Of a DNA stretch of 64,000 bases, positions 33,539 through 62,276 are shown piece after piece. The notes below the pieces were generated by a model. That model did not search any database. It worked only from the letters and a program-made list of their open reading frames with translations, and had not been told where the DNA came from. The stretch is taken from contig JAUIGV010000004.1 in the NCBI GenBank assembly GCA_030432565.1, positions 62,001-126,000 of the forward strand, given 5' to 3'. This DNA is from Verrucomicrobiia bacterium. GTDB lineage: Bacteria; Verrucomicrobiota; Verrucomicrobiia; Verrucomicrobiales; Akkermansiaceae. Made by a program: the position numbers and the translations under genes. Position 1 is the first letter of the stretch; each line of letters opens with the position of its first letter.

Positions 33539-33680
33539 GAAACTTAACTGAAATTAAGAAAAAGGAAACGAATCACGACACCAAGCATTTTCCGGAGATT
33601 TAGCGACTTTCCCTCCGATTTCAACCATCAGGATTTTCCGGCTTAGAAATTTAGCTCATCCAACGTATACCTTGGTTCGC

Positions 33681-36600
33681 ATGCGCCCCCTCGTCATCCT
33701 CCTCTGCCTCGCTTCCACTGTCTTTGCCGAAGTTGATTTCGCGTCCGAAATCCAACCCATTCTCTCGGACAATTGTTACGTCTGCCATGGCCCGGATGAA
33801 AAGAGCCGAAAGGGCGGACTGAGGCTTGATCAACAAGACCTCGCCCTCAAGGGTGGGGATTCCGGCCCCGCCATCGTGCCCGGCAACCCCAGCAAATCGC
33901 TCATCCTTTCACGCATCAATCTTCCCCATGGCGATGAAGATCACATGCCACCACCCGACAAAAAGGACCCACTGGCACCAAAGCAAAAGGATCTTCTCGA
34001 ACAATGGATCAAGGAAGGAGCGAAATGGGGGAAACACTGGGCTTTTATTCCGCCCGAACGTCCAAAATTACCAAAGATTAAAAACGATGCCTGGCCCAAA
34101 AACGAGATCGACCATTTCATTCTCGCCCGACTCGAGGCCGAAGGCCTTGACCCTTCCAGCCCCACCGTGCCGCGAACCCTTCTGCGCCGACTCCACCTCG
34201 ACCTCATTGGTCTTCCCCCCTCACTGACCGACCTTCGCAGCTTTCAACCTTCAGAGCTTGAATCCCGGATTGCGGGTCTCCTTGCCTCGCCTCATTATGG
34301 CGAAAAATGGGCGCGGGAATGGTTGGACGTCGCACGCTATGCAGACTCCGCAGGCTACGAGAAAGACCTCCCGCGAGAGATGCATTTCTACCGTGACTGG
34401 GTCGTTAAGGCCCTGAACAAGGACATGGGATATGACGACTTTATCATTAAACAAATCGCCGGTGATCTTGTTCCTGACGCAACGCAGGACGATCACATCG
34501 CTACCGGATACCTCCGAAACTCCATGACCAACGAGGAAGGCGGAGCAAAGCCCGAGCAATTCCGAATCGAAGGAATCTTCGATCGCGTGGATGCTGTCGG
34601 CAAAGGCATCCTGGGCATCACGACGCAATGCGCCCGCTGCCACACCCATAAATACGATCCTCTGACCCACGACGAATACTACGGAATGTTCGCCTACCTG
34701 AATTCTATCCGGGAAGCATCCACTCCAGCCTACTCCGTTGGCCAGCACACACAAATCAAGCAAATCAAAAAGCAAATCACCGCGCTTGAAAACCGCCTCA
34801 AGACAGAAAATCCGGACTGGCAGGTGGTCTATCAGGATTGGCAGGACGAACTTTTGAAATCACCCCGTACGACGTGGACCGTACAAAAAATCGCCCAATA
34901 CGGAGATGCCGGCCAAAAATACCAAAGCCTCCCCGATGGATCTCTCATCAACCAGGGTTACGCGGCCACCATGATGTCCGCGCCTTTCCAACATCAATCC
35001 AGTACCGTGGGAACAATTCGCTCCGTCCGCCTCGAACTTCTCAACGATCCCTACCTCCCGCTCAACGGCCCAGGACGATCGATGGCCGGAACCGCCGCCC
35101 TTTCCGAATACCTTCTTCGAGTCGACGGCAAGGATGCCAAATTTAAAATCGCACATGCTTCCGTCAATCCACCGGAAGCCAAAATTGACCCAAAACGATA
35201 TCCCTTGAATGCCGAACGAGGTCCCGATGAACGCATCACCGGAGGTGCTCAATTCGCAATCGACGGAAACCACAAAACGGCCTGGACCACAGATCACGGC
35301 CCCGGCCGCTCCAACGATCCCCAGATCATCGTGATGGAACTGGATGAACCAATCACAAAAGCAGGGACACGCGACCTCAGAACCATTCTTGTGCAACGCC
35401 ATGGCGGCTTCAATTCGGATGACAACCAAACCTTCAACATCGGGCGATTCCGCCTTTCCTTCTCCAGCCAATCTCCCACGCCATTCGACACCCTCCCACC
35501 CCGCATCCGTGAGGCCTTGCTTTCAGACAAACGTAGCCCTCAGCAAGAAGCCCTCGTCTTTAGTCATTGGCGCTCCCACAACCCCGCTTTCGCGGACATA
35601 AACCAGCAAATCGAAAAACTCTGGAAAAAGCACCCGACTCCAGCCGTCGCTCTCGTTGCCAAAGCAGTCGAAAAACCACGCGTCACCAGACTTTTCGAAC
35701 GCGGCGAACAGACCAAGCCTCAGCACGAAGTCAAACCAAACACACCGGCCTTTCTGAACCCTCTCCCAAAAGGGGATCCCGCTTCCCGGCTCACCTTTGC
35801 CAAGTGGCTCGTAGCTCGCGATTCTCCGACCACCGCCCGTACCCTCGTCAATCGCATCTGGCAGTCCTACTTCGGCACGGGCCTTGTAGAATCGCCCGAA
35901 GACCTCGGCCTGCAAAGCCCCCGCCCTTCCCATCCCGAACTCCTCGACTGGCTCGCCGTCGAATTGATGGAAAATGATTGGAGCATGAAACACATTCACC
36001 GTCTCATTGTCTCCAGTGCCACCTACCAGCAAAACTCCGCTCATTCCTCTCTTCTTCGCGAACGAGATCCCAACAACCGCCTTCTCGCACGGGGGCCACG
36101 GACCAGGGTTCCGGCCGAAGTTTTGCGCGACATCCAACTCTCCACCAGCGGTCTCATCAACCTCGAGATCGGTGGTCGCTGCGTCTTCCCTCCAGCTCCG
36201 GAATTCCTCTTCCAAAAACCGGTCTCCTATGGCCCAAAAACCTGGGACGTCGAAACCGATTCCCAACGCTACCGGCGCGCTCTTTACACCTTTCGCTTCC
36301 GCAGCGTTCCTTACCCCATGCTCGCTGTCTTTGATGCCGCCACCGGTGATGCCGCCTGTGTTCGCAGAACCACCTCGACCACTCCGCTGCAAGCTCTGAC
36401 CACCTTGAACGAATCCATGTCGGTCGAAGCTGCGGTCGCTTTGGGCGCCCGCATTCTGCAAACCTCCATCGCCGACGCCTTCGAGCACTGCACTTCCCGG
36501 CCACCCGATGCCGCCGAACTTTCCGTCCTCACACAGCTCTTTGAATCACAAAAGACCGCCTTCACTTCGAAATCAGCGCAAGAGCTGATCGCAACCTACC

Positions 36601-36707
36601 ACCCCCTGACACTTGACCCTAGCTCCCAGGACCCGGTCCAACTCGCAGCCGCGACCTCGGTCGCCCAGGCTCTTCTCAACCTCGACGAGACGATGACCAA
36701 AAACTAA
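33681..36707 (+). CDS. PSCyt1-DUF1549-DUF1553 cytochrome-like protein
   Basis: About 1008 residues from the ATG at 33681; a TTG three codons before is unlikely. A signal peptide (MRPLVILLCLASTVFAE) precedes PSCyt1 with CYVCH at residues 32-36 and HMPPPDKKDPLAPKQ. DUF1549 follows (EIDHFILARLEAEGL, LLRRLHLDLIGLPPS, WLDVARYADSAGYEKD, and CARCH at 317-321). A central insert resembles a carbohydrate-binding or discoidin-like sandwich. DUF1553 ends the protein (FAKWLVARDSPTTARTLVNRIWQSYFGTGLV, RMLSYMAT-like AVFDAATGDAACVRRTTSTTPLQALTTLN). It is the typical partner of DUF1501 proteins. Confidence 0.9.
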   Translation: MRPLVILLCLASTVFAEVDFASEIQPILSDNCYVCHGPDEKSRKGGLRLDQQDLALKGGDSGPAIVPGNPSKSLILSRINLPHGDEDHMPPPDKKDPLAPKQKDLLEQWIKEGAKWGKHWAFIPPERPKLPKIKNDAWPKNEIDHFILARLEAEGLDPSSPTVPRTLLRRLHLDLIGLPPSLTDLRSFQPSELESRIAGLLASPHYGEKWAREWLDVARYADSAGYEKDLPREMHFYRDWVVKALNKDMGYDDFIIKQIAGDLVPDATQDDHIATGYLRNSMTNEEGGAKPEQFRIEGIFDRVDAVGKGILGITTQCARCHTHKYDPLTHDEYYGMFAYLNSIREASTPAYSVGQHTQIKQIKKQITALENRLKTENPDWQVVYQDWQDELLKSPRTTWTVQKIAQYGDAGQKYQSLPDGSLINQGYAATMMSAPFQHQSSTVGTIRSVRLELLNDPYLPLNGPGRSMAGTAALSEYLLRVDGKDAKFKIAHASVNPPEAKIDPKRYPLNAERGPDERITGGAQFAIDGNHKTAWTTDHGPGRSNDPQIIVMELDEPITKAGTRDLRTILVQRHGGFNSDDNQTFNIGRFRLSFSSQSPTPFDTLPPRIREALLSDKRSPQQEALVFSHWRSHNPAFADINQQIEKLWKKHPTPAVALVAKAVEKPRVTRLFERGEQTKPQHEVKPNTPAFLNPLPKGDPASRLTFAKWLVARDSPTTARTLVNRIWQSYFGTGLVESPEDLGLQSPRPSHPELLDWLAVELMENDWSMKHIHRLIVSSATYQQNSAHSSLLRERDPNNRLLARGPRTRVPAEVLRDIQLSTSGLINLEIGGRCVFPPAPEFLFQKPVSYGPKTWDVETDSQRYRRALYTFRFRSVPYPMLAVFDAATGDAACVRRTTSTTPLQALTTLNESMSVEAAVALGARILQTSIADAFEHCTSRPPDAAELSVLTQLFESQKTAFTSKSAQELIATYHPLTLDPSSQDPVQLAAATSVAQALLNLDETMTKN

Positions 36708-36714
36708 CCCTCCC

Positions 36715-38130
36715 ATGAATTTTCTCTCAGACATTCAACGCGCCCATTCCCGTCGCTGGTTTCTCAAAGATTGCGGCCTCGGACTCGGAGCGATCGCCCT
36801 GACCTCCCTCGAAGCCCGCGCAAATGCCAACCCGGGCAATCCGAATCCTCTCGCCCCTAAGCGGTCCCACTTCCCGGCCAAAGCCAAAAACGTCATCTTC
36901 CTTTATATGGGAGGCGCCCCCAGCCACCTCGACCTTTTCGACTACAAACCCGAACTGGCCCGCCTCAACGGAACCAAGCCACCTGCCGAACTGCTCAAAA
37001 ACTATCAATCCGCCTTCATTAATCCCGACAACAACCTCCTCGGACCGAAGTTCAAATTCAAAAAATATGGGAAGGCCGGCACCCAGATGGCCGAAATCCT
37101 TCCCCATCTGGGCTCCGTTGCCGATGACATCGCCGTCATTCGCTCCATGCACACCGAGGCCTTCAATCACGCCCCGGCCCAAATTCTCCTCTCCACCGGC
37201 TCCCAACAATTCGGCCGGCCCAGCCTCGGCTCATGGGTCACTTACGGACTGGGATGCGACACCGACAACCTCCCCGCCTTCGTCGTCATTTCATCAGGCA
37301 GCAAGGGGCCGTCAGGTGGCAACGCCAACTTCAGCTCCGGCTTTCTTCCCTCCGTTTACGATGGTGTCCAATTCCGCTCGGTCGGCGACCCCGTCCTCTA
37401 TCTCTCCAACCCGAAAGGAGTTTCCAAGGGCAACCGCAAGGCCGTCATCGATGCCATCAACGAACTCAACAACCGCCACTTCGAATCCGTTGGCGACCCT
37501 GAGATTCAGACCCGCATCGCTGCTTACGAAATGTCCGCCCGCATGCAGGACGTCGCTCCCGAAGTCACCGACATCTCCCGGGAACCGGACCATATTCAAA
37601 AGCTCTACGGAGCCGAACCAGGCAAACGATCTTTCGCCAACAACGCCTTGCTCGCCCGCCGACTTGTCGAACGGGGTGTCCGTTTCGTTGAACTTTTTCA
37701 CGAATCATGGGACCAACATGGCGGGCTCGTTGGCGGGCTCAAAAAGAACTGCAAGGATGTCGACCAAGCCTGCGCCGCCTTGATCAAAGACCTCAAGCAA
37801 CGCGGCATGCTCGAAGACACCCTCATCGTCTTCGGCGGAGAATTCGGACGCACTCCCATGACCCAAGGCGGAACCGATGGTCGGGACCACCATCCCAATG
37901 CCTTCACCATGTGGCTCGCCGGTGGCGGAATCAAGGGCGGCGTGAACCATGGCAAGACCGATGACCTCGGCTTCAACGCGGTTGAAGACAAAATTCATAT
38001 CCACGATCTAAACGCCACGATCCTTCACCAACTCGGCTTCGATCACGAAAAGCTCACCACTCGATTCCAGGGCCGTGACTTCCGCCTCACCGACGTTCAC
38101 GGTCACGTCATCAAGCCCATCCTAAGCTAG
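36715..38130 (+). CDS. DUF1501 protein with Tat-type signal
   Basis: A 471-residue member of the sulfatase/alkaline phosphatase-like DUF1501 family. The N-terminus SRRWFLKDCGLGLGAIAL is twin-arginine-like. Family blocks are NVIFLYMGGAPSHLDLFDYKPEL, IRSMHTEAFNHAPAQILLSTG, LPAFVVISSG, and GGEFGRTPMTQGGTDGRDHHPNAFTMWLAGGGIKGG. The gene starts 7 bases after the DUF1549/DUF1553 gene and overlaps the convergent PanB-like gene by 4 bases. The product is likely exported folded and works with its neighbour. The enzymatic reaction is unknown. Confidence 0.92.
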   Translation: MNFLSDIQRAHSRRWFLKDCGLGLGAIALTSLEARANANPGNPNPLAPKRSHFPAKAKNVIFLYMGGAPSHLDLFDYKPELARLNGTKPPAELLKNYQSAFINPDNNLLGPKFKFKKYGKAGTQMAEILPHLGSVADDIAVIRSMHTEAFNHAPAQILLSTGSQQFGRPSLGSWVTYGLGCDTDNLPAFVVISSGSKGPSGGNANFSSGFLPSVYDGVQFRSVGDPVLYLSNPKGVSKGNRKAVIDAINELNNRHFESVGDPEIQTRIAAYEMSARMQDVAPEVTDISREPDHIQKLYGAEPGKRSFANNALLARRLVERGVRFVELFHESWDQHGGLVGGLKKNCKDVDQACAALIKDLKQRGMLEDTLIVFGGEFGRTPMTQGGTDGRDHHPNAFTMWLAGGGIKGGVNHGKTDDLGFNAVEDKIHIHDLNATILHQLGFDHEKLTTRFQGRDFRLTDVHGHVIKPILS

Positions 38131-38939
38131 GATTTGCTGATCGCATCCTGCATCGCTTTCAACTCGGCCTCGTCCATCTCGATCAGATTTTCCGACTGCG
38201 GGAACGATCCTCCATTCACATCGGCGATGTATTCCCGAAAGGCTTCCACGCGCTCGTCTTGCAAGCGACGATACTCCGCTGAAAAATCCCGGTAGGCTTT
38301 CGCATGTCTCGGCAGTCGCTCATCATAGTCGCCAAGAATATCGTCCGAAAATAAGAACTGGGTATCACATCCGGACCCTGACCCCAGTGACATGAGCAGC
38401 ATCGAGGTCTCTCTACACAACCAACTCGCCAACTGGTGTGGGACACATTCGATCTCCGCAGCATATGCGCCCGCGTTCTCAAGCTCCTTCATCTTTTCAT
38501 ACAAGCCTCTGGCCTCAACCGCAGTTTTCCCAATCGCCCGATAATTCGTCCAGGTGACATGCCGCGGGATCAGCCCCAAATGCCCCACCACCGGGATCCC
38601 CTCCCGGGCCATCGCCTCGATGATCGAGGGACTTGCCGAACAGTAAACGGAACTCGCGCCCATTTCGAGCGCTCGGAACCCAACGCGAATCGCCTCTTCT
38701 TGTGAAGCCAGACCGTGCGGTGTCGCCCCGGACAGGAAACTATTTGGAGCAGCTTCCACCAATTTCGGCAGCCGCGCCTGGGCCTCCGGCGAGTCGAAAC
38801 TGCAACTCATAAGATCGACTCCGGCCATTTCCGCTGCGGCAGCCTCTTCTGGCGATTTCACATGAATGTGGGTCAGGCAACGCTTCCCCTTTAATTTTCT
38901 CAAATCGTAAATCGTGAACTTTTTCCTTGGTCGAATCAT
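38127..38939 (-). CDS. PanB-like (PEP mutase fold) protein, not canonical PanB
   Basis: A 270-residue TIM-barrel protein. Its middle and C-terminal parts follow ketopantoate hydroxymethyltransferase: GIPVVGHLGLIPRHVTW, AAEIECVPHQLASWL (the catalytic Glu is kept) and SLGSGSGCDTQFLFSDDILG. The metal-binding parts of PanB are altered: the LVGDS block reads LMSCSFDS, the block with the second Asp reads FLSGATPH, and VKIEGG reads VYCSAS. I therefore expect a different reaction or none on ketoisovalerate. The ATG start is clear. It is tail to tail with DUF1501. Confidence 0.75.
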   Translation of the reverse strand: MIRPRKKFTIYDLRKLKGKRCLTHIHVKSPEEAAAAEMAGVDLMSCSFDSPEAQARLPKLVEAAPNSFLSGATPHGLASQEEAIRVGFRALEMGASSVYCSASPSIIEAMAREGIPVVGHLGLIPRHVTWTNYRAIGKTAVEARGLYEKMKELENAGAYAAEIECVPHQLASWLCRETSMLLMSLGSGSGCDTQFLFSDDILGDYDERLPRHAKAYRDFSAEYRRLQDERVEAFREYIADVNGGSFPQSENLIEMDEAELKAMQDAISKS

Positions 38940-39088: not shown

Positions 39089-42000
39089 ATGGACCACCTT
39101 CCCATCCTCATAGTTTTTGCACTTGGAATCGCGGCCGCCTTCTGGGTCGGCCGAAACGCATCACCACAAAAGTCCTCTCCGGTTCCACAACCCGCTCCCG
39201 CACCCGGGAACGAAACGGAGGAAGAACAGCCTGCACCCGGACAAAAAGAAAAAAAGCCCAAGGAAAAAAAGCCAAAAGATATTCATGCCTGGGCTCAAAA
39301 ACTGGGCAATGATCTCGGGAAAATCCCGACAACCATCGGGATCATCGAACATCCCAAGTTCCAACGGGCTCTCACCGAACTTGCGGCACGGGAAATTTCG
39401 GCTGAAGACCTCGTTGTTCATCTCAAGAGTGAAAATGACTTTATGGCCATGCTCGCTCTTCATTTGGCAGGTGGCCGGGATGACCTTGATGAAGAAATTC
39501 TCAAGCCCGCTCTCTTTTCCCACATCCGTAACCCTTCCACCCACCGGACCATTACGGCCCTTCGCTGTATTCCGTCAATTTACAAGCAACCGGCGATCGG
39601 GCCTGTTTTCGCTGCCGTCTATAGTCCTTGGGATGATTTTCAAATCGACCGGGCCCTCCGAAAATTCGTCGCCGAACGCCTGGCCTTCGGAGAAGAGCTG
39701 ACCTTTGGCGAACACAATCGCGAGATCGACAGCTGGGACCTTGATGACGTCAAGACCATCGTCCGACGCCTTCCCGACGAACAGGCCAGGGTCTTGCTCG
39801 ATGAACTCGAGGAGAAGGGCATTGGCGAACCCGGGGACCCCAGGGAATTTCTCCGCCAGTTCGCCACGATTCTCGGACCCATTTCCGATCGGCTCGAAGA
39901 CGGCTCTCCTATTCTCGAAACCGCGACGTTGGAAGCACAGAAAAAGTCCATCGTGGAAAGCCTAACCCGCGACGAACAAGCCCGCTCGGTTCTGCTGACA
40001 GGAGCCAGCCGGGTTGGCAAAACCTCGCTCACCCGATTGGTCGCCAGGGATCTTCAGGAGCAAGGATTCATCGTGGTGACCGCAACATCGGCAAATTTGC
40101 AATCCGGCCAAAGCTACATTGGGCAACTTGAACAACGAATGCTCGAGTTCCTCCGTATTCTTCGTCGACGCAAGGTTGTCTGGATCGCTGATTCCTTCCA
40201 CGAACTGGAACTTGCGGGCCGCCATCAGTACAGCCCCACCAGCATCCTCGATATGATCCTGCCGGACCTCTCGGAAGGAAACATTCTCGTCATTGGCGAA
40301 ACGCCTGAAAGTTCACTGAGCAAACTAAAGACTTCATCGCCAAGGATCGACACCGCCGTCGACATTGTGAAAATCGACGAGCCTGGTGAAAAGCAAGCCC
40401 TTGAGATGGCCGGAGATTGGATCAACGAACATCCGGGCCAACTCGGAAAGAAGCCGGGGAGCACCGGCGAGACCTTGGCCGAAGGACTCAAGTTGGCGCG
40501 CCAGTATTCCCTCGACCACGCCATGCCCGGGCTTCTTCTCGACCTTCTCAAGGAGTGCTTCCAACGCGAGTGCGATCAAGCCAAGGGCCCCTCGGTGTCG
40601 ATAGATCGTCCCGCGCTCCTCCGCGCCTTGGCTTCGAGGACCGGCATGCCCATGGAAATCATCGACGATGAACTAATTCTCGACCTGAAGGCCCTCCAGA
40701 AAAAATTCGATCACAGTGTCCTCGGCCAACCCGAAGCCGTCACCGTACTCGTCGAACGAATCGCAATGATTAAGGCCGGCCTCACCGATCCTTCCCGTCC
40801 GCTCGGAGTCTTCCTTTTTGCCGGACCCACGGGAACGGGCAAGACCGAAATTGCCAAGTCCCTCGCCAACTTCCTTTTCGGGTCGGAGCAAAGAATGATC
40901 AGGCTGGACATGTCGGAATTTCAAGATTCCAGCTCCTTGACCCGTTTAATTGGAAGCCCCGATGAAGGGACCTCTCTCGCCTCTCGAATCCGGCAACAAC
41001 CTTTCTCGCTCGTTCTTCTCGACGAATTTGAAAAGGCCAATCGAAACGTTTGGGACCTCTTCCTTCAGGTCTTCGATGACGGGCGCCTCACCGATTCGCG
41101 AGGCAACACCGCCGACCTCCGGAACACCATCATCATTCTGACTTCGAATCTTGGGGCCCGGGATGCCCAGGCGGTCTCGATGGGCTTCAATCAGAGCAAC
41201 CATCCCTCATACCAACCTCGAGAAATTCAAAAAGCGATTGAACAAACCTTCCGAAAGGAATTTGTAAACAGAATCGATCGCATTGTGACCTTCCGCCCTC
41301 TCAGTCGTGATACGATGCGCGAAATCCTTCGCCACCAGCTTTCAAAAACCCTCTCCCGGCGAGGCTTGCGAAATCGCCCGTGGGTGATCGAGTGGGATGA
41401 AACCGCTTCGGAACTCCTTCTTGAGAAAGGCTTCACCCCAACCATGGGCGCACGCCCCCTCATGCGGGCCATGGACCGATATCTTCTGGGCCCACTGGCC
41501 AAAGAAATTGTCAATGGAGTCATCCCTCCCGAAGAACAACTGCTCTTTATCTACGCACGTGACGGCGAACTCCACTGGGACAGTTCACTCGATGAATCGG
41601 CCGATAATCTCGCGGCCGATCCTGAAGAAGAAGTTGCCGAGTTCTCAAACCGGCACCTCATTCTTAATCCGACAGGTTCCGAGGATGAGCTCAGGCACCT
41701 TTGCCAGCGCCATCAGGATCTTGATGAGCTACTCAATCTCGAAGCTTACCTCGAAGCCAAACAAGCCTGCCTCGAAGCCATGCAGAGGGAAGGTTTCTGG
41801 CAGTCCGAAGAACGCTGGCATCATCTCGCACTCGCTGAGTATATTGACCGCGTTGAGTCCGCCCTCAATGCCACCGGCTCTCTTTTGGAAAGACTTGTCA
41901 ACAATCCCGACAGCCGCCCGTCGTCGCCCGAGAAAGTCCGCCTCCTCGTTTCCAAACAAGCCGAACGCCTCTTCCTCCTTGAGCAGTCCTATCCGGAAAT

Positions 42001-42439
42001 CACGGCGGGCGAGGCCAACGACGCCCTCCTCCTCATTGAGGCAAACGCAAACGATATCTCCTTCGCCGAACAACTTCGCTCCATGTATCAATCGTGGGCC
42101 GCCAGCAGAGGTATGAACTTGCAGGAACTTCGGAGCCCGATGTATTGGGCTGCTCGCATGAATGGCTTCGGTGCTTTGACCATTCTGCAAGCCGAGGCCG
42201 GTATCCACCATTGGGCCGAAGGTAAGAAAGGAGATCGCTGGCAATGCAAAGTCCACGTGATCCCGATTGCACCAGGCGAAAAATCAATCCGCTTTGACCA
42301 GCTTCCGAAACTCTCCGGTACCACCCGCAGATATCAGGAGGTTCCCACCCCTCTCGTCATCGATAAGAAGCGTCCCTTCCGGACCGGGCGACTTGATCTC
42401 GTCCTTAAAGGACACTTTGACCTCATCGAGCCTAACTAA
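39089..42439 (+). CDS. Membrane-anchored ClpB-like double AAA+ ATPase with RF2-like C-terminus
   Basis: A 1116-residue protein. Residues 3-21 are a membrane helix, followed by a Pro/Lys/Glu-rich linker (about 28-65) and a helical domain unlike Clp_N. The first AAA+ ring has Walker A GASRVGKT (305-312) and the ClpB-like pore segment SYIGQLEQR. Its Walker B is degenerate (VVWIADSF). The second ring has GPTGTGKT (579-586), VLLDEFEK (642-649) and ClpB D2 small-domain motifs, but the aromatic pore loop is missing (LIGSPDEGTSLASRI). Residues about 884-1065 resemble RF2 domain 1 and PCRF (GFWQSEERW; NDALLLIEANAN; FAEQLRSMYQSWAASRGM; EAGIHHW). No GGQ domain follows. Substrate unknown. Confidence 0.85.
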   Translation: MDHLPILIVFALGIAAAFWVGRNASPQKSSPVPQPAPAPGNETEEEQPAPGQKEKKPKEKKPKDIHAWAQKLGNDLGKIPTTIGIIEHPKFQRALTELAAREISAEDLVVHLKSENDFMAMLALHLAGGRDDLDEEILKPALFSHIRNPSTHRTITALRCIPSIYKQPAIGPVFAAVYSPWDDFQIDRALRKFVAERLAFGEELTFGEHNREIDSWDLDDVKTIVRRLPDEQARVLLDELEEKGIGEPGDPREFLRQFATILGPISDRLEDGSPILETATLEAQKKSIVESLTRDEQARSVLLTGASRVGKTSLTRLVARDLQEQGFIVVTATSANLQSGQSYIGQLEQRMLEFLRILRRRKVVWIADSFHELELAGRHQYSPTSILDMILPDLSEGNILVIGETPESSLSKLKTSSPRIDTAVDIVKIDEPGEKQALEMAGDWINEHPGQLGKKPGSTGETLAEGLKLARQYSLDHAMPGLLLDLLKECFQRECDQAKGPSVSIDRPALLRALASRTGMPMEIIDDELILDLKALQKKFDHSVLGQPEAVTVLVERIAMIKAGLTDPSRPLGVFLFAGPTGTGKTEIAKSLANFLFGSEQRMIRLDMSEFQDSSSLTRLIGSPDEGTSLASRIRQQPFSLVLLDEFEKANRNVWDLFLQVFDDGRLTDSRGNTADLRNTIIILTSNLGARDAQAVSMGFNQSNHPSYQPREIQKAIEQTFRKEFVNRIDRIVTFRPLSRDTMREILRHQLSKTLSRRGLRNRPWVIEWDETASELLLEKGFTPTMGARPLMRAMDRYLLGPLAKEIVNGVIPPEEQLLFIYARDGELHWDSSLDESADNLAADPEEEVAEFSNRHLILNPTGSEDELRHLCQRHQDLDELLNLEAYLEAKQACLEAMQREGFWQSEERWHHLALAEYIDRVESALNATGSLLERLVNNPDSRPSSPEKVRLLVSKQAERLFLLEQSYPEITAGEANDALLLIEANANDISFAEQLRSMYQSWAASRGMNLQELRSPMYWAARMNGFGALTILQAEAGIHHWAEGKKGDRWQCKVHVIPIAPGEKSIRFDQLPKLSGTTRRYQEVPTPLVIDKKRPFRTGRLDLVLKGHFDLIEPN

Positions 42440-44798
42440 GGCCACCGCGGCGGCGGATCACCCATTCCGCTGTTAGTAAAATCGCCAGCAAAAGAAGAAC
42501 CGGCCAAATGTCCCATAGCGAGGTTTCACGAAGTTCTGTTCGAGTCTCATCCCCTTTTAAGAAAAGATCAGCGAGTGCTCCTTCACCTTCGAAGACCCGG
42601 CCACCCGACATTTTTGCGATGGAATCGAGAAGCGGTTGATTGAGCGTGGTCTCTGAAAGCTCGATCGCACTTCGGGCTCCAACCACGCGGAAACTCGTGA
42701 TCACTTCATCACGCACCTTAACCTCATACAGGCCCGGCTCCCGAAACGGCCCCGCCAGACTTTCGTGAATCCCATTGGAATTCTCACGGTATTTTAAAGG
42801 CACCTGCGTCACTTCACCCGATTCGTGCGTCACCTCTGCGATCAGATTTTGATCCACGATGGGATTCAGATCACCGTCCCTGAGCCGGGTCATAATTTGA
42901 ACCCGATCGTCTCCGGTGTAAGTCAGTTGGTCAGTGCCGAGTCTGATTTTTTCATTGCCGGCACGAAGGTTGGGACCAGCTCCCCAACGGACCAACTGCC
43001 CCCAGAAGCGGTGATGATAGATATCACCAACACCTTCGCGCAACCGCCACGTCCGGTCGGCAAGCAACATCGCGACCTTGCCCGCGCCGGTCTGCCGGGT
43101 GACAAGGAGGGCATTCCCGGCCTCACGCTCACGACGGCTTGCCACCTCTGAAAGCGCAGCATCAAGGCTCGCTGCAGAATCAACCTTTCGCTTCTTTACG
43201 TCCGCTTCTTCGGCATGAAGCAGGACCTCCGCACCGGGCTGCAACCCCTCCACCGGATGCCTCCAGCGGATCACCGGAAATTCCTTCCAAAGCCGTTCAT
43301 TGCTCATTTGGCCTTCGACTTGAGCCGTGATGGGGTGATTGCGCCCCGTGTTGGTTAGCGCAAGACGAAACTCTTCGTCACCACCATAAAACGTTCTCCG
43401 GGAAGCTTCGTATTTCACCGGAATGAGTTCCCGGGCCACTTCCGAATCAAAAGAGTGCGGCATGTATTCCGGACCAGCCACCAGGACCAGAAGAGCGGCC
43501 CGTTCACTTACACAGCCCTTCAATATGCTCCACTGCTGGTCGCTCAAAGAATCAGGCCCGATGTCACCAACAATGATGACGTCGAACTTGCGCCACTCCT
43601 CTTCGGTCTCAGGCAAATGCGTTGCATTCGCTTCTCCAAATGGCCGACTCGCCGAAGCGACAACCTTGGGAGGGGTGTGGCCCGAAATGCGATCCGGTTC
43701 AAGCAGGACCGACTGGAGGTGAATCGACTGATCCCGACCGTAAAAAAGGTTTCGCAGATATCGAAACTCCCAGCGCGGATGTCTGTCGATCAAGAGCACG
43801 TTCGTCCGGGCATCACTGACCACAGTTTGAAAACCCCACTCGTTATTATTTTCAAAGGTCTCGTCCTCCAGCCCACTCAGCACAACCCGATATTCTCCAA
43901 CACCCCCTTCTTCCGGCGCATGGCGAAACTTCACCTCTTCACGATAATTATCCTGCGGGATGGAAATTTCCCTGGTCTCAAGCTCCTTGTCCCCTGCGAA
44001 CAACTGCAGCTTGGCTTTCTTACCGCGGTATCCGTCGAACTTCAAAAGGGCACCAACCCGAATCCGGTCGCCGAGATAAACCGAGTCGGGAGAACGCACT
44101 GAAATGATGGCAGCATCCTTCGGGGGAACATCGCTACCCGATGGAATGACGGCGATGGGAGCATCAAGAATTCCGAATCGGCGAGAGACGTCTTCAACAC
44201 TCCCGGGGCGATTATGGCGACCGTCGCTCAGCAAGACCACCCCGGCCAGTTGATCGGGCGGGACCTGATCGAGCACTGCTTCCAGCCCTCCCGCCAAGTC
44301 AGTCGCTTGATCCCAGCCTTCGACCTCAACACTCTCATCAAGAAGAGCGCGTCGGGCCGCCCTTACCTCGCGGATTCCCACTCTCCCATCCAATTCATCA
44401 AGCAATCCGCTCGCATCAAGCTGTTCGCGGGCAAGCTCCAGTCGCGACTTGGTTTGACCGTCATCGACCAAGTCCATGGAGGCTGAATCATCAATCATCA
44501 CGATGACTTCGCGCTCGATCTCCCGCTGCACGAAACGGCTCCAGACCGGTTGAAGTAGAATCCACAAAAGCAAGCCAAGCTCAGCCAAACGAAGGCCCAG
44601 CAAAATCCAACCACGTTGCGGGCTGATCGCGGTCCGCTCATATCGGTAACACCAGAAAACCAATTCAGCTCCGAGGGCTCCAATTAAAGGAATCACCCAG
44701 GCCGGCCAAAATGGGTTCACTTCAAGCCAGCGGGCCAAAAGCAAAACCACTCCCCAAAGAGCAAAGAAAATCGCTACTCCTCTTAATAAAATCTTCAC
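42432..44798 (-). CDS. Membrane protein with VWA domain, last gene of the moxR-type operon
   Basis: A 788-residue protein from a GTG start that overlaps the stop of the gene before by 4 bases. It has three N-terminal membrane helices (to about residue 86), a VWA-like domain with metal-site motif VIVMIDDSASM, then Ig-like beta domains and a glutamine-amidotransferase-like fold (VLLIDRHPRWEFRYLRNLF, IIVGDIGPDSLSDQQW). It ends with a C-terminal membrane helix (WPVLLLLAILLTAEWVI). Similar large proteins close MoxR/DUF58/BatA operons in Planctomycetes and Verrucomicrobia. The last 8 bases overlap the end of the ClpB-like gene on the other strand. Confidence 0.82.
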   Translation of the reverse strand: MKILLRGVAIFFALWGVVLLLARWLEVNPFWPAWVIPLIGALGAELVFWCYRYERTAISPQRGWILLGLRLAELGLLLWILLQPVWSRFVQREIEREVIVMIDDSASMDLVDDGQTKSRLELAREQLDASGLLDELDGRVGIREVRAARRALLDESVEVEGWDQATDLAGGLEAVLDQVPPDQLAGVVLLSDGRHNRPGSVEDVSRRFGILDAPIAVIPSGSDVPPKDAAIISVRSPDSVYLGDRIRVGALLKFDGYRGKKAKLQLFAGDKELETREISIPQDNYREEVKFRHAPEEGGVGEYRVVLSGLEDETFENNNEWGFQTVVSDARTNVLLIDRHPRWEFRYLRNLFYGRDQSIHLQSVLLEPDRISGHTPPKVVASASRPFGEANATHLPETEEEWRKFDVIIVGDIGPDSLSDQQWSILKGCVSERAALLVLVAGPEYMPHSFDSEVARELIPVKYEASRRTFYGGDEEFRLALTNTGRNHPITAQVEGQMSNERLWKEFPVIRWRHPVEGLQPGAEVLLHAEEADVKKRKVDSAASLDAALSEVASRREREAGNALLVTRQTGAGKVAMLLADRTWRLREGVGDIYHHRFWGQLVRWGAGPNLRAGNEKIRLGTDQLTYTGDDRVQIMTRLRDGDLNPIVDQNLIAEVTHESGEVTQVPLKYRENSNGIHESLAGPFREPGLYEVKVRDEVITSFRVVGARSAIELSETTLNQPLLDSIAKMSGGRVFEGEGALADLFLKGDETRTELRETSLWDIWPVLLLLAILLTAEWVIRRRGGLS

Positions 44799-47656
44799 GC
44801 CACGCCTCCTTTCGTCCCCTTGGTTTTCGCTGCCGATCTCAAGAACGAATCCGGAATCTCATCGCGCTTCTCAAAATCCACTTTCACTTCCTCTCCTGCC
44901 TTCCGCGACTTCGAGACCCAGCGGGCCAGAATGCCCTCAAGAAAGAACAAAACGAGCGCCGCAATCGCCAATACCTTCCAGATCTCCTGCCCAAACCCTT
45001 CACCTCGCAAGGCAGCCAAAACATCCTTGATCGATTTCAATTCAATCAGATCAACCTCCCGGCGAATCAAGTTGCGATCATCATCATTCCAGGGCTCGAG
45101 ACGACTTTCTTCGCCCTCTCGCTCCACTACCAAAGGAACTTCTTTTTCACCGGACAGCAGGTCCTGAACCTCATCAGGAATACTCACCAAATACTCACCG
45201 GGAATGGCCGACCCATCAACTTCCAGCAGCTTCCCTCTTCGACCAAGATATGCCGAAACATCGCGATCCCGTCCCAGCGGATCCTTTGCTGATGATTCCC
45301 CCAAAACAACACTCGACTCCTCACGACTGACTGGAATGAACACCGAGGCCGGGATCACTTCCTTCACGCCATCCGGCCTCTGCCACGACAAAGTCACAAA
45401 AGCATCACCCCATTCCTCTTCATAGCTCGCCGAAAAGCTCACCGGCTTTCCGGCCAGAAGCTCAATCTTCTCGCTTCGCCCTTCCATCTCCTTCCCCTCG
45501 TAAACCATCTCACCGTCCAGTTTCAGCTCAAACTTGTCATCAGCGGTGACTTCAAAAACATACTCCCCGGAAGCGGGCGGAATCAGCGCACCGGTCCAGG
45601 TCACTCCGAATTGATCGGCACGCATTCCCTTCTCAGGTGCTCCGGCCTCCCAATTAAAATCAATCGCCGGATCAATCCGGCTCAGGCTTTTGCCGCGACT
45701 CTCCAGCGAACGATACACCGCATTCAAGCCACCACCGCCCGGCAGGGACAGGGTCGGACTCCAACTGGCCCGCACATTTAAATCCACAGTCTGACCTCCG
45801 GCCAACCAGTTGGTCATCTCATGAACGAAAGGAACAAAACTCGGGCGGGCAGGCAGGCTGCCCATCCGGGCATCAAGAGCAGTTGTCGTCACAATGACAC
45901 GACCATTTCCATAATTTCGGGTCGCCAGGAAAATTTCGCCATCACTATAACGGGCCGCGGCCATGGCACCCTCCACCAATCCGGATGAGGTCCGGTATCC
46001 TTCAATGACCGCTTCCCCAAGATCCTGACCCGCTTCATCTTTGAAGAGTCGCAAAACCGGATGATCAAAACTTCCGGGGGCAGCCTGCACTCCTTTTTCG
46101 GGTAGCGCCATTTCACCGAGTCTCAGTGGCATCACCTTGCCGTCACCCCCGCTCCACGAGTCATAGTAAACCGGATCGACCTTGGGCCCTGCGATCACCC
46201 AAAGACCACCACCATTGATGACAAAGTCGGCAATCCTCGTCGCGGCTGACGCCGGAAGACGGGTCACATCCGCCAAAACAATTACGGCATCGTCGTCAAG
46301 TTCCTCGCGGGTTAATGCGGCTGCATCGATAACCCGCGGATCGATGAATGTCTCTTCCTTCCCGGTCACGGGCGCTAGCGCCAGTGCGAGATAACCACCG
46401 GCACGCTGGAAGAAGGAAGCTCCGGCATTCCCCTCTACGATAAGAACGGGCAGAGTCTTCTTAACCCAGACCGCCTTCTCGGCAAGGTCGTCTCCGGAAA
46501 GATCATCATTGCCGTCCAGATCCACCTTGATTACCTGCGGGCCGACTTCGGTAAACTGATAGCGATAGTCGAGGATGGAGCTTTCACCCGGTGCCATCTG
46601 CCCAAGTCCTTTCGGTTCCAATTCCTCCTCACCCACCGTGACTCTCATCAAGCCGGGGGTCACCACCTCGGTTCCGGTGTTCTCAATCGAAACCCGAATC
46701 GCCACCTCGCGATCAGTTCCAACAACTTCGCGGGAAAGTTCGACCCCCGTGACCGATACATTGCGTAACTTCTCAGGCGGAGCAAATGAACGGAGCAAAA
46801 GCCGCGGTTTGGCGCCATCAGGCAACCCTTCCCAGGCATCCCCGAGATTCCCCCACGAGGTGGTACTATCAAACTGCCAACCAATCCTCTGTCGATCGGT
46901 AAACACCACAAGGTCTTTACTGCTGCCCCGGCCCTCGGCCAGCGATAAAGTGGCCATACCAAGGGCGTCATGCGCGCGGAAGGGGCCGCCCACTGGTTCC
47001 AGTTGATCGAGCACTTCCAAAACATCCGCCCGGTGAGTGAGCGGCGTTCCCGTCTTAAGCTCCGGAGCAGGTCCTCCGAGAACAATCGAAAATGCCGTGC
47101 CTTTTGGCGCTTCCTTGACAAAGTTCCGGGCCTCCTCAACGGCACGCTCAAAGGCCGTACGACCATTCTCTCGCAGAAGCATCGACGTCGATCCATCGAT
47201 CACAATCGCCACGTCACGGCGCTCACTGGTCTGAAATCGTTTCAGGTTTAGATTCTTTTCCTGCCAGATCAAAAAACCCGCACCGGCAATCATCAGGATC
47301 GCCAACACCCGCATCACCCATTTCCATTTCCGCGAAGAAAGAACGAACGACCCGCCAAACGCCGCAATTCCCAGCAAACCAAGGGGCAGTACGAAGAGCC
47401 AGGGGATCTCCGAATCAGGCGGCACAAAAGGCCGGGCCACCGCCAAGGCGATCAAGGCAATCAAAAGACAGCGCGTGATCATGAGCAAAAAGTCCTCCCA
47501 CTCCATCCGTCGACGGCGCGCCGCGACAGTGTCGAACAGAAAGCGCATTGCCCCCCAGTCGTAGGGTTTCGCAGCCTGACGACGGATGAGGTGCAGAATC
47601 ACCGGGATTAATACACCCGCCAGTCCTGCCAATAAGAGAGGATTCCTAAAAAGCAT
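44795..47656 (-). CDS. BatA-like VWA and PA14 domain membrane protein
   Basis: About 953 residues from the ATG at 47656, whose MLFRNPLLLAGLAGVLIPVILHLI is the BatA N-terminus; the longer open frame only re-reads the DUF58 gene. Helices at about residues 7-25, 59-80 and two more lead to a VWA domain with metal site VAIVIDGSTSML. A beta/amidotransferase-like part follows (VLIVEGNAGAS, GGGLWVIAGPKVD). A PA14-type domain is visible around WTGALIPPASGEYVFEVTADDKFELKLDGE. A last helix (VLAIAALVLFFLEGILARW) is near the C-terminus. One base separates it from the DUF58 gene. Confidence 0.85.
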   Translation of the reverse strand: MLFRNPLLLAGLAGVLIPVILHLIRRQAAKPYDWGAMRFLFDTVAARRRRMEWEDFLLMITRCLLIALIALAVARPFVPPDSEIPWLFVLPLGLLGIAAFGGSFVLSSRKWKWVMRVLAILMIAGAGFLIWQEKNLNLKRFQTSERRDVAIVIDGSTSMLLRENGRTAFERAVEEARNFVKEAPKGTAFSIVLGGPAPELKTGTPLTHRADVLEVLDQLEPVGGPFRAHDALGMATLSLAEGRGSSKDLVVFTDRQRIGWQFDSTTSWGNLGDAWEGLPDGAKPRLLLRSFAPPEKLRNVSVTGVELSREVVGTDREVAIRVSIENTGTEVVTPGLMRVTVGEEELEPKGLGQMAPGESSILDYRYQFTEVGPQVIKVDLDGNDDLSGDDLAEKAVWVKKTLPVLIVEGNAGASFFQRAGGYLALALAPVTGKEETFIDPRVIDAAALTREELDDDAVIVLADVTRLPASAATRIADFVINGGGLWVIAGPKVDPVYYDSWSGGDGKVMPLRLGEMALPEKGVQAAPGSFDHPVLRLFKDEAGQDLGEAVIEGYRTSSGLVEGAMAAARYSDGEIFLATRNYGNGRVIVTTTALDARMGSLPARPSFVPFVHEMTNWLAGGQTVDLNVRASWSPTLSLPGGGGLNAVYRSLESRGKSLSRIDPAIDFNWEAGAPEKGMRADQFGVTWTGALIPPASGEYVFEVTADDKFELKLDGEMVYEGKEMEGRSEKIELLAGKPVSFSASYEEEWGDAFVTLSWQRPDGVKEVIPASVFIPVSREESSVVLGESSAKDPLGRDRDVSAYLGRRGKLLEVDGSAIPGEYLVSIPDEVQDLLSGEKEVPLVVEREGEESRLEPWNDDDRNLIRREVDLIELKSIKDVLAALRGEGFGQEIWKVLAIAALVLFFLEGILARWVSKSRKAGEEVKVDFEKRDEIPDSFLRSAAKTKGTKGGVA

Positions 47657-47657
47657 C

Positions 47658-48581
47658 TTACCCTTTCCTCCTTCCCAAGTAACGCACCAGAGCATCCGAG
47701 ACCGGAGTCTTGGTGGATACCGGCACATAGTCGGCTTTAAGATTTCCGCACACCGATTCAATCGAAGCGATGAAGTCCTTCAGCTTTTGCAGGTAAGCAG
47801 CCCGCACCGCTTGCGGATCAATTCGCAACATTTCCTCCACACCTTCCAGATCGCGGAAGCGCTGGAAGTTCCGGAAAGGAAAACTCAATTCTTCTTCAGC
47901 CAACACATGAAACACCACCAATTCGTGCTGTCGGTAATCAAAGTGGTGAAGCGCCTCAACAATTTGCTCGGGCTCGTCAAAAAGGTCGCTGATTAAAACC
48001 ACCAGTCCCCGCCTTGGAATTCTCTCCGCGACTTCGTGAAGAACCTTTCCAACGCCGGTCTCCCTGCCGGGCTCGGTTCCATGAAGTTCTTCACAAATCC
48101 TCCGCACCTGGCTCGGCTTGTTCTCGGCCCGCATCGAAGTGCGCAGCGTATCGTCAAAGGTCACCAATCCCGAAGCATCACCTTGTTTGATAAAAAGATA
48201 CGAGAGTGCGGCCGCCAGATACTGGCCGTATTCAAACTTCGAGAGATCTGACTCATCTCCCTTGAAAGTCATCGAGCCGGAAACATCCAGCACCATCGTC
48301 GCCCGCAGGTTGGTTTCTTCAATATACTGCTTGATGACGTTGCGATCGCTCTTGGCCATCACACGCCAATCGAGATTTCGCAAATCATCGCCCAGAGTGT
48401 ATTCCCGGTGTTCGGCAAACTCGACCGAGACCCCTTTGTCGGGACTGGAGTGCCGCCCGGTCAGAGTCCCCTGCTTTCGCAGTCTTGAAAGCCACTCGAG
48501 ACGACGAAGCGAGCCAACCACTTCGGGTGCAAGCAAACGCATGCACTCCGGCATTTTTAAATGATCAGTGGCTTCGGCCAT
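47658..48581 (-). CDS. DUF58 domain protein
   Basis: A 307-residue cytoplasmic protein with the family core GVSVEFAEHREYTLGDDLRNLDWRVMAKSDR and a VWA-type metal site TMVLDVSGSMTF. DUF58 proteins regularly accompany MoxR ATPases and VWA membrane proteins and may act as adaptors. The start (ATG at 48581) is 34 bases after the moxR stop. The VWA/BatA gene starts immediately after its stop. Confidence 0.93.
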   Translation of the reverse strand: MAEATDHLKMPECMRLLAPEVVGSLRRLEWLSRLRKQGTLTGRHSSPDKGVSVEFAEHREYTLGDDLRNLDWRVMAKSDRNVIKQYIEETNLRATMVLDVSGSMTFKGDESDLSKFEYGQYLAAALSYLFIKQGDASGLVTFDDTLRTSMRAENKPSQVRRICEELHGTEPGRETGVGKVLHEVAERIPRRGLVVLISDLFDEPEQIVEALHHFDYRQHELVVFHVLAEEELSFPFRNFQRFRDLEGVEEMLRIDPQAVRAAYLQKLKDFIASIESVCGNLKADYVPVSTKTPVSDALVRYLGRRKG

Positions 48582-48615
48582 TCCGTTTTATTACGTGCGG
48601 TCTCGCAAGCGAAGC

Positions 48616-49623
48616 CTAGATCTTAATATCGGCATCCTTCCCGCCGAGTTCCTCAACGAGACGCTTGATGATGTCGTCGCTCTTCACCCCGGCTGCTTCC
48701 GCATTGAAGGTGGTCAAAACCCGGTGACGAAGCACCGGCAAAGCCACTGAAGCCACATCGCCCGTGGTAGCGTGCACCCGGCCGCGAAGAACCGCGTGGG
48801 CCTTGGCTGCTGAAATCAACGAGATCCCGGCACGAGGACCAGCTCCCCAACCGACCATTTCTTTCACGAACTCAGGGGCTTCGTCGGACGCGGGGCGAGT
48901 CGCCCGGGCCAGCTTGGCCGCGAAGTCAATGACATGATCACCAACCGGAACCCGTTTTACAATATTCTGCAGATGGATAATTTCCGGCCCCGTCATCAGA
49001 GGTGAAATCGTCGCTGAATTCGGGCTCGTCACCCGGCGGATAATCTCACGCTCCTCCTCGGCACTGGGGTAATCAACGACAATATTGAAAAGAAATCGGT
49101 CGAGCTGGGCTTCCGGCAGCGGATAGGTGCCTTCCTGCTCGATCGGGTTTTGGGTTGCCAGCACGAAAAATGGATCCGGTAAATTCAGGGTCCGCTCACC
49201 CACCGTAACATGGCCCTCCTGCATTGCTTCCAGCAAGGCCGCCTGCGTCTTCGGTGGAGTACGGTTGATCTCATCCGCCAAAACCATGCTGGCAAAAAGC
49301 GGTCCGTTGACGAATCGAAAGCCCCGGTGCCCCGTCTCCGGATCCACTTCAAGCACATCAGTGCCGGTAATATCCGCCGGCATCAGGTCGGGAGTGAACT
49401 GGATCCGCTTATACTGTAGGTCCAGAGCCTGGGAAACGGTCGAAACCAAAAGCGTCTTCGCCAAGCCAGGCACACCTACCAAAAGAGCGTGGCCACGACA
49501 GAACATCGCCATCAAAACCTGCTCGACCACCTCATTTTGACCCACAATTACCTGGGCCAGCTCTTCCTTCATCCTCCCATAGCTCGCGTGGAGCTTTTCG
49601 ACGGCAGCTTTGTCCTCACTCAT
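48616..49623 (-). CDS. MoxR-family AAA+ ATPase
   Basis: About 335 residues from the ATG at 49623; a GTG four codons upstream is the alternative. It shows Walker A GVPGLAKT (residues 50-57), Walker B VLADEINRTPPKTQAALLEAMQEG and sensor ATQNPIEQEGTYPLPEAQLDRF. MoxR ATPases are chaperone-like and act with VWA proteins in metal insertion, protein complex assembly or envelope stress. It heads the four-gene minus-strand operon down to 42432. The gene for HemB lies 103 bases upstream on the same strand. Confidence 0.95.
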   Translation of the reverse strand: MSEDKAAVEKLHASYGRMKEELAQVIVGQNEVVEQVLMAMFCRGHALLVGVPGLAKTLLVSTVSQALDLQYKRIQFTPDLMPADITGTDVLEVDPETGHRGFRFVNGPLFASMVLADEINRTPPKTQAALLEAMQEGHVTVGERTLNLPDPFFVLATQNPIEQEGTYPLPEAQLDRFLFNIVVDYPSAEEEREIIRRVTSPNSATISPLMTGPEIIHLQNIVKRVPVGDHVIDFAAKLARATRPASDEAPEFVKEMVGWGAGPRAGISLISAAKAHAVLRGRVHATTGDVASVALPVLRHRVLTTFNAEAAGVKSDDIIKRLVEELGGKDADIKI

Positions 49624-49726
49624 GTTAGGAGTCACCTACGAGGGTGGCGTCCGCTCTCTTGCTCATTTTTGAAAAGAATGTCCTGAAAGTCTCATTTCTT
49701 CAAATCCATCGAAATTACAAGCCGGT

Positions 49727-62229: not shown

Positions 62230-62276
62230 GATGGGCAATATCGGCGGCCCTGCCACCGGAGCAAGAGGGAATTTTC

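Follow-up and report, generated by a model that had tools for sequence, protein, structure and literature searches.

A Clp-type double AAA+ ATPase with a predicted membrane helix and a release-factor-2-derived C-terminus lacking the GGQ domain

In ClpA, the pore motif of the second AAA+ module (D2) pulls the substrate towards ClpP. In release factors, the GGTE and SPF blocks contact the stop codon. The hydrolase domain of the bacterial release factors is inserted into their stop-codon-recognition domain, as stated in a survey of these proteins (PMC6514570). Balon has lost both the stop-codon and the GGQ motifs and yet sits in the A site of the ribosome, according to the report on it (PMC10901736). 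The gene described here lies in a 64,000-nucleotide stretch of DNA (the window; contig JAUIGV010000004.1, positions 62,001 to 126,000, assembly GCA_030432565.1) from a Verrucomicrobiia bacterium of the Akkermansiaceae, the genome of which is 5.93 Mb long, in 82 contigs, and 97% complete. An earlier note, made from the sequence alone, had proposed that this gene fuses a double Clp-type AAA+ protein with a segment of release factor 2 (RF2) that lacks the GGQ domain, and column shuffles, profile comparisons and a search of the PDB bear the fusion out. The gene starts with ATG and has no internal stop.

39089..42439 (+): whole gene, an open reading frame of 1116 residues; homologues in genomes G003 (96% identity), G021 (75%), G039 (40% over the full alignment), G609, G632 and G719

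It is about an even bet (probability roughly 0.5) that the product of this gene is a membrane-tethered, ClpA-like remodeller that ends in RF2 without its GGQ domain and uses this end as a docking module. The sequence comparisons described below show a predicted membrane helix, two AAA+ modules with the motifs split between them, and a tail composed of RF2 domains 1 and 2 and the end of domain 4, without domain 3. The tail is made up as follows; all four assignments come from profile comparisons.

41681..41998 (+): RF2 domain-1-like helical segment, residues about 865-970, with GFW
42011..42274 (+): PCRF, that is RF2 domain 2, residues about 975-1062
42275..42319 (+): short linker at the site of the inserted GGQ domain 3 of RF2
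42320..42427 (+): RF2 domain-4 C-terminal block, residues about 1078-1113, containing RRYQEVPTPLVIDKKRPFRTGRLDLVLKGHFDLI, dense in invariant columns

The homology of the tail to RF2 was settled by the use of a family profile, as searches with single sequences are weak or empty. The tail of the window protein gives no match to the PDB with phmmer, and only E 0.024 against the NCBIfam prfB model (residues 41-186 of the 287-residue tail). The PCRF match anticipated in the earlier note was reached in part: the window sequence stays below the Pfam cut-off (E 0.0027, 18 bits against 24), but the family profile matches and the G039 homologue passes on its own with 24.8 bits. When the profile of the seven tails was compared with 177,635 distinct PDB sequences, 38 of the 39 matches at E up to 10 were RF2 or RF1, with a best E of 1.8e-11 for RF2, and the sole match that is not a release factor had an E of 0.14. 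The alignment pairs profile positions 36-214 with RF2 residues 7-201, which make up domains 1 and 2. Another stretch, weak by itself (2.6 bits), pairs positions 257-291 with residues 321-355 in the proper order.

Profile-profile comparisons, the E-values of which each refer to one pair, gave 3.9e-11 for ten RF2 proteins of the same order and 7.6e-8 for RF1. Against an RF2 profile from which domain 3 had been removed, hhalign reported a probability of 98% and an E of 5.8e-14, and none of 50 column shuffles scored as high. Taken part by part, the PCRF segment of four sequences has an E of 2.1e-13 (0/100 shuffles as high), the domain-4 block exceeds all shuffles both with four sequences (0/100) and with seven (0/50), and the domain-1 segment of seven sequences has an E of 2e-4 (0/50). 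Domain 3 shows no similarity to the tail (E 0.56), and GGQ does not occur within the last 300 residues of any of the seven proteins, in keeping with the absence of this domain noted earlier. Chance similarity to RF2 is ruled out by the column shuffles and the PDB profile search, and judging from these comparisons it is almost certain that the tail derives from RF2. The previously recognized extent was right in including domain 1 and PCRF, but the tail covers about 250 residues rather than 180 and includes the domain-4 strand (about 1078-1113), which had been missed.

Since the hydrolase is an insert in the recognition domain of release factors, the tail looks like an RF2 from which the insert was removed and the two halves of the host domain were rejoined. 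The narrow spread of the family, its possession of domain 1 and a resemblance to RF2 that exceeds that to RF1 would favor a loss of domain 3 over an ancestral state that never had the insert. The tail is under purifying selection: the ratio of nonsynonymous to synonymous rates (omega) is 0.13 between the window protein and G003, 0.07 between the window protein and G021 (synonymous divergence saturated), and 0.16 between G632 and G719.

The ATPase part was read against the ClpB-like and the ClpC-like protein of the same genome (L001 and L002, named from their sequences), and its features are listed below.

39944..40588 (+): AAA+ module D1, residues about 286-500, with degenerate motifs (NCBIfam match and motif alignment)
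40001..40024 (+): D1 Walker A GASRVGKT, residues 305-312 (motif alignment)
40112..40138 (+): D1 pore loop SYIGQLEQR with Tyr343, the tyrosine being present in 7/7 (motif alignment)
40181..40198 (+): remnant of the D1 Walker B motif, WIADSF, residues 365-370, without the catalytic Glu (motif alignment)
40676..41293 (+): AAA+ module D2, residues about 530-735, with a full set of active-site motifs (Pfam and motif alignment)
40823..40846 (+): D2 Walker A GPTGTGKT, residues 579-586 (motif alignment)
40949..40972 (+): position of the missing D2 pore loop, GYVGY in the ClpB-like and ClpC-like proteins of the same genome, residues 621-628 (motif alignment)
41015..41026 (+): D2 Walker B LLDE, residues 643-646 (motif alignment)
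41180..41188 (+): MGF tripeptide, residues 698-700, resembling a ClpP-docking loop (aligned with LGF of the ClpC-like protein)
41294..41554 (+): D2 small domain (Pfam)

The two Clp-type modules that had been seen by eye are recovered by Pfam, as AAA_2 at residues 570-731 (E 1.4e-44) and ClpB_D2-small at residues 738-817 (E 3.7e-14), and by the NCBIfam ClpA model, which spans residues 286-811 (E 1.3e-86). The scores stay far below the cut-offs: the protein reaches 291.5 bits where the ClpA cut-off is 993, and 300.6 of the 1232 bits set for the ClpB equivalog. The alignment with the reference proteins reveals no middle domain between D1 and D2. The PADLOC model of DolB, which we take to be a component of the Dodola anti-phage system, matches the D2 module only (532-693, E 4.9e-35), as expected of any Clp D2.

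The motifs are divided between the modules as follows. In D1, Walker A and the pore tyrosine are kept in all seven members, as had been claimed for the tyrosine of the window protein, and the arginine fingers (RR of ALERRF) are lost in all of them. The earlier note had the catalytic Walker B pair of D1 lost; this holds for the Glu, found in 0/7, but not for the Asp, which is present in four of the seven, including the window protein with its WIADSF. In D2, Walker A, Walker B, sensor 1, the arginine finger and sensor 2 are intact in 7/7. The GYVGY pore motif of D2 is lost in every member, the loop being shortened in six and replaced by a Gly-rich stretch in G039, so that the retention of the D2 Walker motifs and the loss of the aromatic pore loop both extend to the whole family.

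The N-terminal part consists of the following two features.

39095..39151 (+): N-terminal membrane helix, residues 3-21 (hydropathy; 7/7 family members)
39278..39943 (+): N-terminal region, residues 64-285, without a Pfam family

The best 19-residue hydropathy of the window protein is 2.08, at residue 3, where a membrane helix had been predicted, and a hydrophobic N-terminal helix with values of 2.0-2.7 is found in 7/7 members. A membrane anchor is thus supported by prediction in the entire family. The helix is preceded by acidic or neutral residues and followed by Arg or Lys. By the positive-inside rule, these flanks would place the N-terminus outside and the rest of the protein inside, which suggests that the ATPase lies on the cytosolic side. 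No Pfam family, and hence no Clp N-domain, is matched by residues 60-285 up to E 1.

Related ATPases were found as 12 paralogues in four other genomes of the order, from families other than that of the window, arranged as A-B-C operons in three (G042, G050, G052) and as an A-B pair with a separate C-type gene in the fourth (G044). All 12 lack the D1 Walker B Glu, the D1 arginine pair and the D2 GYVGY motif, and have complete D2 motifs; in the A proteins the D1 aromatic residue lies one column later, and an aromatic residue persists in some of the shortened D2 loops. None of the 12 reaches a hydropathy of 2. In a tree that carried a long-branch warning, a branch with 100/100 support separates the paralogues and the RF2-tailed family from ten ClpB-like and ClpC-like proteins of the order. 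At E 1e-6, gene A was detected in 18 of the 386 genomes searched from the order and in 2 of 337 genomes of a phylum sample. The 18 stretches read (among L082-L085 and L159-L172) have B in 16 cases and C in 11, and the two stretches seen without B, L165 and L167, have the A gene close to a contig end.

The tails of these paralogues resemble RF2 to a lesser degree. The A tail (17 of the 18 sequences, one not having been cut out) matches RF2 without domain 3 with an E of 5.9e-7 (0/50 shuffles as high). By parts, its domain 2 is matched (2.8e-4), and domains 1 (0.076) and 4 (0.84) are not. The B tail (14 of 16 sequences) is weakly linked, with an E of 4.1e-5 to the RF2-tailed family and of 0.0065 to RF2. 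Four-sequence profiles of the A tail and of the B tail found no release factor in the PDB. The C proteins have no tail, ending in 16-28 residues in 11/11. The capture of RF2 may consequently be older than the membrane-anchored family, and would then have been followed by a loss in C. HicB-like N-domains had been suspected by eye in the paralogues; the two N-terminal regions scanned gave DUF5054 as their sole match, with an E of 0.039, below the cut-off, and the suggestion was dropped.

The RF2-tailed family itself is narrowly distributed. A search of 58 genomes, including that of the window, found the tail in three others, G003, G021 and G039, the last with 47% identity over residues 297-1114. 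Among 386 genomes of the order, the tail profile matched 19 at E 1e-8: seven encode the full protein (G000, G003, G021, G039, G609, G632 and G719), one a fragment (G689), and 11 have short frames of 333-487 residues that were taken as release factors, two of them (G040 and G041) being read as RF2. In a sample of 387 genomes from across the phylum, 209 gave a match at E 0.001; besides the window gene, the matches listed comprise frames of 297-467 residues and two longer ones, L105 and a frame of 632 residues in G133. The 866-residue frame of L105 was considered as a further fusion, but it encodes an ordinary RF2 that is extended upstream by chance. Of the seven members, three are from one genus, three from another and one from a third; they therefore amount to about three to four independent lineages, not to seven witnesses. 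The genome profile searches covered this one phylum. The scan of named species genomes relied on exact matches to a small number of short peptide patterns and yielded three loci, so that distant members in other phyla may be missed. The 26 stretches of viral contigs that matched a pattern encode no relative, and plasmids gave no match to the window tail at E 0.01.

The fragment in G689 (L041 / L139) is a frame of 584 residues that runs from the end of D1 into the RF2 domain-1 segment without D2, after which the match stops. It represents either a deletion or an assembly error; the name of the record gives a very low coverage.

By combining these observations, it is possible to describe how the protein might work. 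The ATPase would form a hexamer at the inner membrane, on its cytosolic side. D2 would hydrolyse ATP and drive the ring, and the ATPase-dead D1 would supply the pore tyrosines that grip the client. Without an aromatic pore loop in D2, the machine probably pulls on or remodels its client over a short range and does not thread it processively. The RF2-derived tails would leave the ring on the D2 side and serve as docking modules, neither reading stop codons nor cutting peptidyl-tRNA. The partner on which they dock is most likely either the ribosome, which we name tentatively, or a protein that has taken over the RF2 surface. The retained MGF or LGF tripeptide might also permit a hand-over to ClpP.

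The following observations weigh against this proposal. The domain-1 segment is not significant when only four sequences are used, 5/100 shuffles scoring as high. AlphaFold2, run with a three-sequence alignment on residues 850-1116 and 970-1116, returned a mean predicted local distance difference test score of 37.2 and 39.5, respectively. No neighbor gene that points to any pathway is shared among the members whose neighborhoods were examined, those of G021 and G039 being seen mostly as unnamed reading frames and the contig of G719 being too short. Finally, conservation was scored on the 68 invariant positions that ten RF2 proteins share outside domain 3, mapped onto the tails through a gapped alignment on which the counts depend. 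All seven tails retain 16 of these positions; two more survive in four to six tails, and 50 in fewer. With 50 of 68 such positions lost, a partner like that of a release factor cannot be assumed.

The same residues can be read as the remains of a scaffold. The RF2 fold might have been exapted as an adaptor, with a new protein-binding surface at the RRYQExPTPLV-D-R-GRLDLVL-G-FD block and a client other than the ribosome; we consider this plausible, at somewhat less than even odds. Only 16 of the 68 residues are kept in 7/7 (those retained include F903, W904, E1036, G1038, H1040, R1080, Y1082, P1086, D1092 and G1108), and the domain-4 strand carries a new block that is nearly invariant in the family, RRYQE-PTPLV-D--R--R-GRLD-V--G-FD, with single exceptions. 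The A and B paralogues, in which the tails have diverged strongly and the ATPase pattern is largely unchanged, fit this explanation as well. A pure scaffold, however, would have no need of the three-part order of RF2, domain 1 included, which is what the tail has kept.

The client may instead be the ribosome. The GGQ-less module would then bind ribosomes that are idle, stalled or attached to the membrane, in the A site or the factor-binding region and with no stop codon required, and the ring would pull on the nascent chain, on a factor or on the ribosome itself. This is possible, and we hold it with reserve. The tail derives from a ribosome-binding factor and retains domain 1, domain 2 and the end of domain 4 in their original sequence, and the membrane tether would sit near translocon-bound ribosomes. 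Balon, an aeRF1 homologue, provides a precedent for A-site binding after both motifs were lost (PMC10901736). Against this stand the 50 lost positions and the strings SPF, GGTE and TSF, which occur in 0/7 tails, the SPF of RF2 falling into an alignment gap. Since the blocks of RF2 that read the stop codon are lost, the tail should not be a stop-codon reader. Furthermore, no ribosome-related gene was found among the neighbors scanned, in the window, G632 and G609, and transfer-messenger RNA (tmRNA) scores over the cut-off in five of the seven genomes, so that the RF2-tailed ATPase is no plain substitute for the tmRNA rescue path. The most far-reaching version is that of a bacterial ribosome-quality-control machine of a kind for which the papers searched gave no description: a branch of Clp-type ATPases in this order would have captured RF2, deleted its hydrolase and lost its stop-codon readers, leaving a codon-independent ribosome dock for a ring that remodels ribosomes or extracts nascent chains. 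The ring would be tethered to the membrane in the window family and would have no predicted membrane helix in the A/B/C operons. This version we regard as doubtful.

Degradation together with ClpP appears unlikely. In that case the tail would pick substrates and the ring would hand them to ClpP through the MGF/LGF loop. At the position of the ClpP loop, MGF is found in three members, including the window protein, and LGF in four; the ClpC-like L002 has LGF there, the ClpB-like L001 has a gap, and a ClpP gene is present in 7/7 genomes. The docking tripeptide follows the consensus [LIV]-G-[FL], and that of the window protein, which starts with Met, lies outside it. Moreover, the D2 pore motif is lost in 7/7, and a bulky tail would lie on the face of the ring that docks ClpP. 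That the gene is an assembly chimera, a pseudogene or a chance match is scarcely credible and is refuted in spite of the G689 fragment, because the architecture recurs in seven separate assemblies from three genera, which also excludes the joining of two genes by assembly error that the earlier note had considered, because the tail is under purifying selection, and because release factors are the only significant PDB matches.

The surroundings of the gene differ between the members. In the window, a ketopantoate hydroxymethyltransferase-like gene (38127-38939, -) diverges from the ATPase gene, an arrangement also found in G003 (L088). Convergent with the ATPase gene, at 42432-49635 (-), lies a block of a MoxR-like ATPase (AAA_3), a BatA/VWA protein with a PA14 domain and a 788-residue gene without a Pfam match. 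Further upstream, at 33672-38130 (+), are a large gene that presumably encodes a planctomycete-type cytochrome/DUF1553 protein and what we take to be a DUF1501-like gene, both judged by their sequences. The ATPase gene of G632 is followed downstream by a PAS/GAF sensor kinase and by a sigma-54 regulator, and that of G609 has a sulfatase gene upstream. Another AAA_2 protein, of 540 residues and also matching the MCM P-loop model, is encoded at 60634-62256 (-) of the window and adjoins a DUF2135 gene (62277-63986, -).

No description of an RF2-tailed Clp ATPase was found in the open-access literature, searched mostly at the level of listings, preprints and most subscription journals lying outside this coverage. 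Whether or not the tail binds the ribosome, the split of motifs between a putative grip in D1 and a putative motor in D2 provides a natural experiment, amenable to testing, on the way in which AAA+ machines with two rings pull. If the tail does not bind the ribosome, the family would be a clear example of the reuse of a translation-factor fold in an adaptor.

The window family shares with the Clp/Hsp100 class I AAA+ proteins (ClpA/ClpC/ClpB) the tandem AAA+ modules, the complete D2 motifs, the D2 small domain, the lack of a middle domain between D1 and D2 and the GF loop of the ClpC-like protein from its own genome. It differs from them by a membrane helix in place of a Pfam N-domain match, by the loss of the D1 Glu and arginine fingers and of the D2 pore motif, by the RF2-derived tail, and by its position across a 100/100 branch from the ClpB/ClpC-like proteins. 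With bacterial RF2 (prfB) the tail has in common domain 1, PCRF domain 2 and the domain-4 C-terminal strand in the same order; unlike RF2, it has no GGQ domain 3, has lost SPF, GGTE and TSF, and is not free-standing. Balon, the ribosome hibernation factor of the aeRF1 family, is likewise related to release factors and devoid of the stop-codon and GGQ motifs, but it does not belong to the bacterial release-factor family, and the accessible part of its description mentions neither an AAA+ module nor a membrane anchor (PMC10901736). PrfH, ArfB/YaeJ and the other release-factor-derived bacterial factors covered in section 2.4 of the survey are also descendants of bacterial release factors with parts removed, but these keep the GGQ hydrolase and lose other domains, whereas an RF2 minus its hydrolase, carried on an ATP-driven remodeller, is the reverse (PMC6514570). 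If the tail does bind the ribosome, the family would represent a bacterial AAA+ machine that carries its own ribosome receptor, similar in principle to the pairing of Cdc48 with the release-factor-like Vms1 in eukaryotes, which the survey also presents (PMC6514570).

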